A stretch of DNA of 64,000 nt from Actinomycetes bacterium (GTDB taxonomy: Bacteria; Actinomycetota; Acidimicrobiia; Acidimicrobiales; Aldehydirespiratoraceae): contig JAJRXC010000081.1 of assembly GCA_024276495.1 (NCBI GenBank), positions 41,790 to 105,789 of the forward strand, read 5' to 3'. Shown here piece by piece: positions 45,295-50,514 of the stretch; position 1 is the stretch's first letter; each line of letters starts with the position of its first letter. The position numbers and the translations under genes are program-made. The notes beneath the pieces are model-generated. The model had not been told where the DNA came from. It saw only the letters and a program-made list of their open reading frames with translations, and made no database searches.

Positions 45295-45921
45295 TCAGAG
45301 CTTGCGCATCACGGTGACGACCCGGCCGAAGATCCGGACGTCGTCGGCGTCGAACACCATCTCGGAGAGCGAGGAGTTGGCGGGGACGAGCACGACCCGG
45401 CCCTCGCGCCGCCGGAGCGTCTTCACGGTGGCCTCCTCGCCGGGAATTCCCGCGACGACGATGTCGCCGTCGGCCGCGTCGTCCTGGCTGCGGCAGACCA
45501 CGAAGTCACCGTCGAAGATGCCGAGCTCGATCATCGAGTCGCCCCGGACCCGGAGCATGAACAGCTCACCGTCGCCGGTGAGATCGGCCGGCATCGGGAC
45601 GAACTCCTCGACGTTTTGCTCGGCGAGCACATCGGTACCGGCCGCGACATCGCCGACGAGGGGCACGTGCTTGACCGGTCGCCGCTCGGCACCGAGGGCA
45701 TCGCCGTTGTAGTGGACCTGGATCGCGCGGGGTTTGGACGGATCACGAACGAGATAGCCCGCGTCGCGGAGGTTGTCGAGATGGGATTTCACGGTCGCGG
45801 GGGAGCGGAGCCCCACTGCCTCGCCGATCTCGCGCACCGAGGGTGGATATCCCTTGTTCTGCTGGTGTTCGACGATGACGTCGAGGATCTGGCGCTGTCG
45901 GGGGGTGAGGGTCTGGGACAT
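45295..45921 (-). CDS. lexA: SOS transcriptional repressor LexA
   Basis: A 208-residue repressor. The winged helix is PPSVREIGEAVGLRSPATVKSHLDNL near residue 25, the self-cleavage site lies in VGDVAAGTDV (Ala-Gly), the catalytic Ser is in RGDSMIELGIFDGD and the Lys is in EEATVKTLRR. ATG 45921 is preceded by GGAGG. Two LexA boxes in the 220-bp divergent gap show autoregulation. Confidence 0.98.
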   Translation of the reverse strand: MSQTLTPRQRQILDVIVEHQQNKGYPPSVREIGEAVGLRSPATVKSHLDNLRDAGYLVRDPSKPRAIQVHYNGDALGAERRPVKHVPLVGDVAAGTDVLAEQNVEEFVPMPADLTGDGELFMLRVRGDSMIELGIFDGDFVVCRSQDDAADGDIVVAGIPGEEATVKTLRRREGRVVLVPANSSLSEMVFDADDVRIFGRVVTVMRKL

Positions 45922-45978
45922 GTGCGCCTCCGGGGGTGGCTCGGTCGGTTGGGGAAAACTCTGTGGACGGTGTTGACA

Positions 45979-45994
45979 ACGAACAGGTGTTCGG
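45979..45994. promoter_or_regulatory. LexA box 1 in the lexA/LysM intergenic region
   Basis: ACGAACAGGTGTTCGG keeps both perfect half-sites GAAC and GTTC with a 4-nt spacer, 58 bp from the lexA start. Confidence 0.8.
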
Positions 45995-46005
45995 GTTCAC
46001 TGGTG

Positions 46006-46021
46006 ACGAACGACTGTTCGC
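46006..46021. promoter_or_regulatory. LexA box 2 in the lexA/LysM intergenic region
   Basis: ACGAACGACTGTTCGC also has perfect half-sites. The two boxes are 27 bp apart centre to centre. Additional GTTC half-sites follow at 46031 and 46046. Confidence 0.8.
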
Positions 46022-46111
46022 CGCACACATGTTCGCCAAACATTCGTTCGGAGTCAAGTACCTCTTGCGAATCGCACGAGATCTCGCCTCACCGCTCCCC
46101 CCTCGGGGGCG

Positions 46112-46134
46112 GTGTCACACCCCCGGAGCACACT
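46112..46134 (+). promoter_or_regulatory. RecA-NDp-like promoter of the LysM gene
   Basis: GTGTCACAC, 8 nt, then CACACT, ending 7 nt before the ATG at 46142. The element is identical to the recA one over 14 bp (GGTGTCACACCCCC). The -10 has C for T at its first base. The message would be leaderless. Confidence 0.55.
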
Positions 46135-46141
46135 CCAGACC

Positions 46142-46546
46142 ATGACTGCAGCCCTCGTCTTCACCCCGTCGATTCCTCCTCCGTCGACCCCGGTCTCGTC
46201 GGCGCCCGCCGTGTGTCCCGAGCCGTCCGTCGTCGGGCGTCGTGTGCCGGCGCCGCCGGAGATCTACCGGCGCCGCCGTCTCGTCGTCGGCGCGGTGGCG
46301 GTCGGGTTGGTGCTCGGCCTCGCCTCCTTCGGCCGCCAGGCCGACGCCACCCCGACTCCCGAGGTGCGCACGGCCGAGGCCGTGTCCGTGGTGGTGGAGC
46401 CCGGCGACACCTTGTGGGGCATCGCCCGGGATCTCGCCCCCGGCGCCGATCCTCGCCCACTGGTCGCCGCGTTGTCCGACCTCGCCGGCGACGGTCCCCT
46501 GCAGCCCGGCCAGTTGTTGCGGGTTCCCCGTGAGATGGTGGGCTGA
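46142..46546 (+). CDS. LysM membrane protein divergent from lexA, probable SOS division inhibitor (YneA/DivS/ChiZ-like)
   Basis: A 134-residue protein with a Pro-rich N-terminus, a single membrane helix (LVVGAVAVGLVLGLASF) and a C-terminal LysM domain (SVVVEPGDTLWGIARDL...LQPGQLLRVP). The same size and order are found in SOS-induced division inhibitors encoded beside lexA in other Gram-positive bacteria (YneA in Bacillus, DivS in Corynebacterium, ChiZ in Mycobacterium). Two LexA boxes and a RecA-NDp-like element sit upstream. The function is inferred from context; sequence identity between these proteins is typically low. Confidence 0.75.
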   Translation: MTAALVFTPSIPPPSTPVSSAPAVCPEPSVVGRRVPAPPEIYRRRRLVVGAVAVGLVLGLASFGRQADATPTPEVRTAEAVSVVVEPGDTLWGIARDLAPGADPRPLVAALSDLAGDGPLQPGQLLRVPREMVG

Positions 46547-46547
46547 C

Positions 46548-47291
46548 TCAGACCCTCACGTAGCGGGCGAAGAGCAGCTCGTCCTGCTCGAGGAGCCGAT
46601 CGAGTCGGAATCGAGTTGCCAGTCCCTCCCCAGCGTGGGCCACGACGCGAGGGGAGGATCCGCCCGCCATCGTCGGCGACAGGGTCAGGCAGAACTCGTC
46701 GATCACCGCTGCGCCGTGCAGGATGCCGTTGAACCGGGGTCCACCCTCGGCGAGCACCACCCGTGCCCCGCGCTCGCCGAGCTCGGCGAGAATCGCGGCG
46801 GGCTCGGGTCGCTCGGCGTCGAGGCGCACGACGTCGGCGTCGAGGTCGCGCAGATGGTCGTCGTCGGCCGAGGATCCGGTGACGACGACCGGCACCGGAT
46901 CGGTGTCGGCCCGCGCGGCCAAGGCCGGAATCGACGGGTCGACCCGGCCACTGGCGGTCACGATCGCGAGCCGTGGGGAGGGCGTCCGTCCCGCGGCGAC
47001 GCGCCGCTCGGCGATCTCCGCCGTCACCGTCGGTGCGCGGTACTGCTCCGCCGCGGCGGTCGCCGACGCCACCAGGATCCAGTCGCTGCTCGCCCGGATC
47101 GCCCGGAAGACGGCCTGATCGGCGGGGCCACCGAGTCCGCCGCTGACACCGTCGAGCGACGTCGCCCCGTCGATCCCGGCGATCATGTTCACCAGCAACC
47201 AGGGCCGCGTCCCCCTCGCGGGTCGGGCATCAGCGAGGTAGAGGTCGAGCGGGTCGACATCGTCGATCGGATGCGGGAGAAGTTGGCGCAC
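46548..47291 (-). CDS. RibD C-terminal-like pyrimidine/5-amino-6-uracil reductase family protein
   Basis: A 247-residue DHFR-fold protein of the RibD_C family (PWLLVNMIAGIDGATSLDG, AVFRAIRASSDWILV, LAIVTASGRVDP, VLAEGGPRFNGIL, DEFCLTLSPTMAGG). Stand-alone copies reduce ribosylamino-pyrimidines or related substrates with NADPH; several actinobacterial copies are unassigned. GTG 47291 is chosen because TATGGT ends 8 nt upstream. Its stop lies 1 nt from the convergent LysM stop. Confidence 0.85.
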   Translation of the reverse strand: MRQLLPHPIDDVDPLDLYLADARPARGTRPWLLVNMIAGIDGATSLDGVSGGLGGPADQAVFRAIRASSDWILVASATAAAEQYRAPTVTAEIAERRVAAGRTPSPRLAIVTASGRVDPSIPALAARADTDPVPVVVTGSSADDDHLRDLDADVVRLDAERPEPAAILAELGERGARVVLAEGGPRFNGILHGAAVIDEFCLTLSPTMAGGSSPRVVAHAGEGLATRFRLDRLLEQDELLFARYVRV

Positions 47292-47299
47292 GACGGCCG

Positions 47300-47305
47300 A
47301 CCATA
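47300..47305 (-). promoter_or_regulatory. -10 element (TATGGT) of the RibD-C gene
   Basis: On the minus strand TATGGT ends 8 nt before the GTG at 47291. Confidence 0.5.
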
Positions 47306-47316
47306 CCCTCGACGGG

Positions 47317-47349
47317 TTGTCCACCGCCCGACACGGGGATTGTGGACAG
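47317..47349. promoter_or_regulatory. Two inverted DnaA-box-like 9-mers upstream of nrdJ
   Basis: TTGTCCACC (47317-47325, plus strand) and CTGTCCACA (minus strand, 47341-47349) each differ by one base from TTGTCCACA, the high-GC actinobacterial DnaA box. More GTCCAC/ATCCAC words follow to about 47400. Binding is not shown. Confidence 0.35.
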
Positions 47350-47411
47350 GACCGTCGAAATCCACCGCGAATCCACATGTGGTCCCCTGTCGGTCCACAT
47401 GCACCTGGCCG

Positions 47412-47417
47412 TATCGT
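47412..47417 (+). promoter_or_regulatory. Possible -10 element (TATCGT) of nrdJ
   Basis: TATCGT would start transcription at about 47423, the first base of the long leader stem, which is what a structured 5' leader would need. Confidence 0.45.
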
Positions 47418-47421
47418 GCAC

Positions 47422-47572
47422 GCTGCCGTGCGGAACGGATCGCCAGGATGGTGGTGGCAGACGTCTCGCTCAGAGCCGAATCGCTCCTTGGGGGCCCTGC
47501 GCCGGGGGGTGTGGGGAGAACGACACCGACGGTGTCGCCCTCTTACCCGGGATGGTCCGTCCGCACGGCAGC
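47422..47572 (+). ncRNA. Structured nrdJ leader RNA closed by a 17-bp stem
   Basis: GCTGCCGTGCGG (47422-47433) pairs perfectly with CCGCACGGCAGC (47561-47572) and, after one bulged A, ACGGA (47435-47439) pairs with TCCGT (47556-47560). Inside are GAGC-N6-GCTC (47473-47486), CCGGG/CCCGG (47502-47506 with 47546-47550) and the perfect hairpin CGACACC-gac-GGTGTCG (47521-47537). Ninety nt of pyrimidine-rich RNA separate it from the nrdJ ATG. This architecture is that of a riboswitch or cis-regulatory RNA. I could not match the conserved core of the cobalamin riboswitch by eye. Confidence 0.65.
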
Positions 47573-47664
47573 CTTGTTCTCTACTCTCGACCTACACCTC
47601 CTCCATCCTCTCTCTCGACATTCACGCATCTCACCTCATCGGGCGTGACGAAGGGTCCCTGCAC

Positions 47665-50514
<2,850 letters not shown>

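Follow-up and report, generated by a model that had tools for sequence, protein, structure and literature searches.

In E. coli, nrdAB is under DnaA control through three DnaA boxes (PMC8203912), and the locus described here likewise has three sites resembling DnaA boxes before a transcription unit for ribonucleotide reductase. It differs from E. coli nrdAB in that the first product is predicted to be a structured RNA, the reductase is of class II, and loss of the reductase gene, nrdJ, leaves the boxes and the RNA in place. A conserved RNA near actinobacterial nrdJ has been described as the nrdJ RNA (RF03034, Rfam type sRNA), which the RNA reported here resembles in kind and position. RF03034 is 80 nt long, consists of two simple hairpins and has another sequence, whereas the Acidimicrobiales RNA is about 152 nt long, with a closing stem of 13 or more base pairs and internal multiloops. 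Cobalamin or adenosylcobalamin (AdoCbl) riboswitches would be the natural regulator for a B12-dependent enzyme, but no model of these riboswitches matches here. With other orphan structured bacterial noncoding RNAs (ncRNAs) that came to light through comparative genomics, the Acidimicrobiales RNA shares a covarying structure and a conserved unpaired core; unlike them, it outlives the loss of its neighbouring gene.

The locus in the window

The window is the whole 64,000-nt stretch of contig JAJRXC010000081.1 analysed here. Its structured RNA was recovered by both covariance models (R2 model, G000:C71:89210-89361, 130.4 bits; R1 model, L001:1522-1673). The initial annotation had placed a structured RNA before the gene of a B12-dependent reductase, and this arrangement was confirmed, with the RNA on the + strand and nrdJ identified by NF005122. 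The features of the locus are as follows.

46548..47378, − strand: divergent gene of the RibD-C/pyrimidine reductase family
47341..47346, − strand: DnaA-box-like core TGTGGA (TCCACA on the − strand), site at −80
47372..47377, + strand: DnaA-box-like core TCCACA (GAATCCACA), site at −49; the same type of 9-mer occurs at oriC
47394..47399, + strand: DnaA-box-like core TCCACA, site at −27
47412..47417, + strand: −10-like hexamer TATCGT, conserved as TAnnnT in the family alignment
47421..47572, + strand: structured RNA, complete covariance-model match (1-155 of 155)
47422..47434, + strand: P1, 5' strand of the closing stem (fold; P1 covariation)
47436..47447, + strand: inner P1, 5' strand, CGGAUC and CC.GG (covariation, helices 1-2)
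47446..47456, + strand: invariant core GGAUGGUGGUG (alignment)
47462..47478, + strand: putative P2 hairpin, CGUCUC...GAGCCG (helix 4, 93% paired, little variation)
47486..47493, + strand: nearly invariant CCUUGRGG (alignment)
47490..47494, + strand: P3, 5' strand, pairs with 47538-47542 (helix 5)
47495..47516, + strand: P4 hairpin, 47495-47503 with 47508-47516 (helix 6)
47521..47537, + strand: P5 hairpin, perfect 7-bp stem (helix 7, both sides changed in 4 of 5 pairs)
47538..47548, + strand: P3, 3' strand, and conserved ACCC (alignment, covariation)
47547..47559, + strand: inner P1, 3' strand (covariation, helices 1-2)
47560..47572, + strand: P1, 3' strand of the closing stem (fold; covariation)
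47573..47664, + strand: spacer to the start codon, 92 nt, unconserved, with AAGGG
47665..50514, + strand: nrdJ, class II (B12-dependent) ribonucleotide reductase, 949 aa (NF005122, 1369.9 bits)

Upstream of the RNA, on the − strand, the gene of a LysM protein is flanked by those of LexA and the RibD-C type pyrimidine reductase. The true start of the pyrimidine reductase gene probably lies downstream of the listed ATG. The gene order LexA, LysM protein, pyrimidine reductase, RNA and nrdJ is conserved between the window (45295-50514) and its relatives.

Structure and covariation of the RNA

A 17-bp closing stem with one bulge, spanning 151 nt, had been proposed for the window. It is present and slightly longer, with 13 bp, the bulged A47435 and then 6 pairs (47436-47441 with 47554-47559) closing the 151 nt from 47422 to 47572. 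The predicted fold of the 155-nt sequence has an energy of −87.7 kcal/mol, compared with −70.8 ± 4.2 for shuffled sequences (z = −4.04; 0 of 200 shuffles as good). The z score was only −0.34 once the downstream pyrimidine-rich arm was included, which places the arm outside the structured unit. This arm, initially given as 90 nt leading to AAGGG and an ATG, was found as described, at 92 nt with the ATG at 47665; within the family it ranges from 20 to 158 nt, and neither its length nor its sequence is conserved.

The alignment of relatives showed long invariant stretches with variable stems between them. The comparative model comprises P1, P2/P2a, P3, P4 and P5, in which P2a is a modelled pairing of the CC of CCUUGRGG with the GG of the core. 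Its inner stems deviate in detail from the single-sequence fold. The perfect 7-bp hairpin of the initial annotation (47521-47527 with 47531-47537) is P5. The first structure was written from ten sequences aligned by sequence alone, an alignment not biased to structure, and in it 94.5% of cells were paired and both sides had changed in 15 of 50 pairs. The corresponding values were 97.0% and 20 of 50 pairs in an alignment of 28 sequences that was fitted to the model and therefore leans towards structure. In these 28 sequences, 105 cells were changed on both sides, compared with 30.4 in shuffles (0 of 500 as high), and pairing fell to 42-51% when partners were slid by 1-3 columns as a control. 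Compensatory changes back P1, inner P1, P3 (found as GGAGG/CCUCC in L041), P4 and P5. P2 is nearly invariant, and its predicted pairing is compatible with the data, though not proven by them.

Covariation among the leaders of relatives had been set beforehand as the test of the proposed structure, and it proved strong. The frequent G-U pairs on the + strand indicate that this is the sense strand. Judged by comparison among relatives, the folded RNA of about 152 nt on the + strand is a real, covarying structure, and it has the conserved, covarying, aptamer-like fold that a riboswitch would be expected to show.

Comparison with known RNAs

No Rfam family matched the window region or its relatives at gathering or permissive thresholds, up to E = 1-5. 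Weak matches to Yfr1, sX2, pRNA and MIR1858 were rejected, being far below threshold, inconsistent among relatives and mostly on the opposite strand. Possible membership in the described nrdJ RNA motif had been raised and was not borne out: RF03034 (threshold 40.3 bits) gave no match in the window or in the loci of 20 relatives, and its architecture is a different one; as a positive control, the same model scored 80.8 bits in L140, from a more distant actinobacterium. The initial annotation had also seen no cobalamin riboswitch, in agreement with the covariance models of the Rfam cobalamin riboswitch families, which had no match in the window or its relatives. Domains binding B12 were present in 19 of 19 genomes, whether or not these carried the RNA or nrdJ, and thus neither support nor exclude AdoCbl as a ligand. 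Identity with Y RNA or Yrl RNA was considered and discarded, the Ro60 (TROVE) protein being found in 0 of 21 genomes, with a positive result in the control genome. The motif is absent from Rfam and from the open-access literature searched.

Distribution

A DNA search of 61 related genomes located the element in 26 genomes of the same family; a 27th match, L027, was attributed to chance. By covariance-model searches, RNA homologs were found in 31 of 41 family genomes. A model that included divergent copies extended the RNA to at least seven further families of the order (f6, f12, f13, f25, f35, f52 and f58), where every copy lies upstream of nrdJ, and the GGAUGGUGG part of the core is seen again in most of these other families. 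Three model matches in which the core is missing (L167, L168 and L170) were left out of the counts. The covariance models detected no RNA in g5, g6 or G033, nor in nrdJ upstream regions from other classes of the phylum. Because the many-genome searches used strict filters and scored few candidates per genome, failure to find the RNA in an individual genome of another family carries little weight.

A pattern scan of one genome per species (85,462 species, with taxon names as in the records) found true copies confined to Acidimicrobiales, Acidimicrobiaceae, Acidimicrobiia and less precisely named actinobacterial assemblies. The scan loci L102, L115 and L081 were confirmed by the model, which detected no copy in the odd-named records tested; most pattern matches outside the Acidimicrobiales were due to chance.

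Putative promoter and DnaA-box-like sites

The initial annotation had suggested TATCGT, which lies at 47412-47417, as a possible −10 element, and the 5' end of the RNA does fit a conserved −10-like element, with TAnnnT aligned directly 5' of the RNA in the family. A standard sigma-70 scan was negative in the window, where TATCGT was not called, and in G008; no RNA 3' end or terminator was found in either.

Hexamers of the form TNCACA occur upstream of the RNA at 2.61 per 100 nt in 18 representatives, compared with 0.086 in the window, a roughly 30-fold enrichment. They lie mostly at −80 (reversed), −49 and −27, and these distances are fixed in the window (47341-47399) and in 17 other loci. Clusters of sites that share the TCCACA core but vary in their first bases are present at dnaA/oriC in six genomes from the order, and CAATCCACA, the 9-mer at −49 in the clade lacking nrdJ, is also found among these clusters. 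On the strength of this likeness to the oriC boxes of the lineage, the three upstream sites are read as candidate DnaA boxes.

Conservation in species lacking nrdJ

Five genomes, G008, G017, G036, G477 (= NAT108) and G483 (= NP57), carry the RNA and lack nrdJ. Searches with a 300-aa query and a full-length nrdJ HMM recovered only class I NrdA from them, at about 163 bits, compared with more than 1300 for nrdJ. The species are marine, and their genomes are drafts from uncultured organisms. They form one clade, for which a single loss of nrdJ would be enough, so the evidence that they give, deep as it is, comes from a single point of the tree. The RNA remains in its unchanged place, divergent from the pyrimidine reductase gene, and has no sense gene downstream. 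The position of nrdJ is taken by a convergent sigma-factor gene (L028 6198-6890; L076, L099, L102, L115), which in G008 lies 36 nt past the 3' end of the RNA.

Among these species, the RNA diverges at 0-2 of 151-153 positions (0-1.3%) and the promoter at 0-2 of 93 positions. Four-fold sites of two neighbouring genes show 11-18% divergence in nine of the ten species pairs, and the comparison of RNA with four-fold sites gave Fisher P values of 6e-6 to 4e-11 in eight pairs and 6e-5 in one; for the close pair G017-G036, four-fold divergence is 3% and P is 0.024. The 3' flank diverges by up to 42%. The changes seen in the RNA are at loop positions or exchange G-C for G-U pairs. As judged from these divergences, the RNA and its putative promoter are under strong purifying selection in the species lacking nrdJ. 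A coding region was rejected, as every + strand frame of this clade contains a stop and the open frame of the window leader is not shared. Conservation is thus independent of a neighbouring protein gene, as would be expected for a stand-alone ncRNA; the pyrimidine reductase gene still adjoins the RNA in these species, but in the opposite transcription sense.

Arrangement of the RNA and nrdJ

Every copy of the RNA found outside the clade lacking nrdJ lies to the nrdJ side of its locus, and this argues for some link to the gene. The spacer between them measures 28-29 nt in genus g9 and 20-56 nt across g9 and several g1 species, in which the RNA is almost certainly the 5' UTR of nrdJ and may act in cis. 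In g9, given its short spacer, and in the window, whose 92-nt spacer shows no visible promoter, transcription of nrdJ most likely comes by read-through from the promoter of the RNA; in the window nrdJ is probably co-transcribed with the RNA.

The initial annotation had called the element a riboswitch-like leader of nrdJ. This held only in part: the RNA with its covariation stood, but a role as an nrdJ riboswitch was not supported, as five species without nrdJ keep the RNA and nrdJ is found elsewhere with a decayed RNA or none. In G025, an intact nrdJ lies behind an RNA that has lost the invariant motifs (L038 2552-2702), and g5 and g6 have nrdJ with no detectable RNA. An intact RNA in G060 is 1.9 kb away from nrdJ. 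A riboswitch should stand in cis before the controlled gene in essentially all genomes, and the five genomes lacking nrdJ, together with G060, depart from this. Also speaking against an nrdJ riboswitch, a likely nrdJ promoter, a terminator or the 1.9-kb distance separates RNA and gene in several families. By eye, the spacers of G041, g8, g10, L004, L176, L178 and L179 contain palindromes like NrdR boxes or a second promoter, and several families probably have a separate, predicted nrdJ promoter downstream of the RNA. In G048, a strong terminator-like hairpin with TTTTTT after it separates the RNA from the nrdJ start codon (L174 1128-1196); such a hairpin was found only there, the window shows none, and the spacers are not conserved.

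Several further observations were made at these loci. The 5' side of the G048 hairpin could pair with the 5' end of the RNA, in competition with an extension of P1. Palindromes resembling NrdR boxes, such as ACAACATGTTGTG and TTACGNTANNGTGG, occur in the RNA-nrdJ spacers of L172, L176, L178, L179, L011, L012, L014 and L004. An extra nrdJ copy without the RNA is present in G023:C62 (L048), and the other nrdJ of that genome has the RNA. The RNA of G012 at first seemed unlinked from nrdJ, but its contig ends in the very sequence with which the nrdJ contig starts, and the two are hence adjacent. In G426, G441, G444, G458, G461, G462 and G473, nrdJ matches are broken at about residues 140-148 and 216-228; these split matches within long open frames are probably inteins.

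Alternative explanations

The main rival to a trans-acting RNA is a cis-acting riboswitch or attenuator of nrdJ that has gained a second role. Such an element would respond to AdoCbl, a deoxynucleotide or another metabolite, and would have been retained after the loss of nrdJ through that second role in trans or through another target. It stays under consideration mainly because in several genera almost nothing separates the RNA from nrdJ: the RNA directly precedes nrdJ in most genomes, in several with a spacer of 20-56 nt. The compact, highly conserved core is also aptamer-like, and the G048 hairpin with its T6, whose 5' side could pair with the RNA 5' end, is found immediately ahead of the nrdJ start codon. 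An expression platform shared among the genomes was not seen: the spacers vary in length and sequence, and the terminator occurs in one genome. The cobalamin-class models have no match, separate nrdJ promoters are probable 3' of the RNA in several families, and five species lacking nrdJ conserve the RNA with no sense gene downstream. Taken together, these points make a cis riboswitch unlikely, though it retains some weight.

The other explanations are considerably less probable. A passive, stable 5' leader whose closing stem merely protects the 5' end of nrdJ mRNA would account for a predicted transcription start at the first bases of the stem. It is nonetheless improbable, given that simple 5' protection has no need of the unpaired segments, which are the most conserved part, and that the RNA is conserved without nrdJ. 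Slightly less credible still is a conserved DNA element, either a DnaA-binding array or the promoter of the divergent gene. Across the 152 nt, compensatory changes and the high frequency of G-U pairs argue for RNA, as do the loop changes and G-C/G-U swaps that make up the few differences in the clade lacking nrdJ; the DnaA-box-like sites upstream and the nearness of the divergent gene fit a DNA element, but the boxes lie outside the RNA. It is very hard to credit that the RNA is a divergent copy of a known one, be it the Rfam nrdJ RNA, a cobalamin riboswitch, 6S, SRP, RNase P, tmRNA or Y RNA. Only its position is in favour of this, while no Rfam match was obtained up to E = 1-5, the architecture of RF03034 differs, and 21 genomes contain no Ro60/TROVE protein. 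The failure to detect the RNA in g5, g6 and G033 further indicates that it is not a universal housekeeping RNA.

Proposed role

The explanation we favour, and consider reasonably probable, is a new family of structured ncRNA that acts in trans and has a DnaA-controlled promoter, with nrdJ as a frequent passenger. The fold, the sense strand, the −10-like element, the three box sites and the selection in the absence of nrdJ were established by comparison of genomes, and they suggest that the RNA probably has a job of its own and is not just a riboswitch for nrdJ. This trans-acting RNA would be encoded order-wide in the Acidimicrobiales, between the pyrimidine reductase gene and nrdJ, from a promoter presumably controlled by the replication initiator DnaA. 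Its transcript would fold into a multi-branched structure that P1 holds closed, and would be released, or persist, as a discrete RNA; action in trans would most likely come about through a protein or RNA partner bound via the invariant GGAUGGUGG and CCUUGRGG. Where nrdJ lies behind the RNA, read-through from the same replication-linked promoter would help to supply reductase; lineages with short spacers, the window included, would depend on this read-through for nrdJ, and others would use an nrdJ promoter of its own. A more specific form of the proposal, which we put forward only tentatively and regard as rather doubtful, is a replication-coupled, trans-acting RNA under DnaA control that tunes nucleotide supply or replication in the Acidimicrobiales, with nrdJ often co-transcribed as a passenger.

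Little is known of RNA biology in this bacterial order, to which these results add an RNA family with good support. They also illustrate that a position before a gene is no proof of a riboswitch, as the gene was lost in evolution and the RNA was kept. If the reading of the upstream sites as DnaA boxes is true, a single promoter would tie deoxynucleotide synthesis and a structured RNA to the control of replication.
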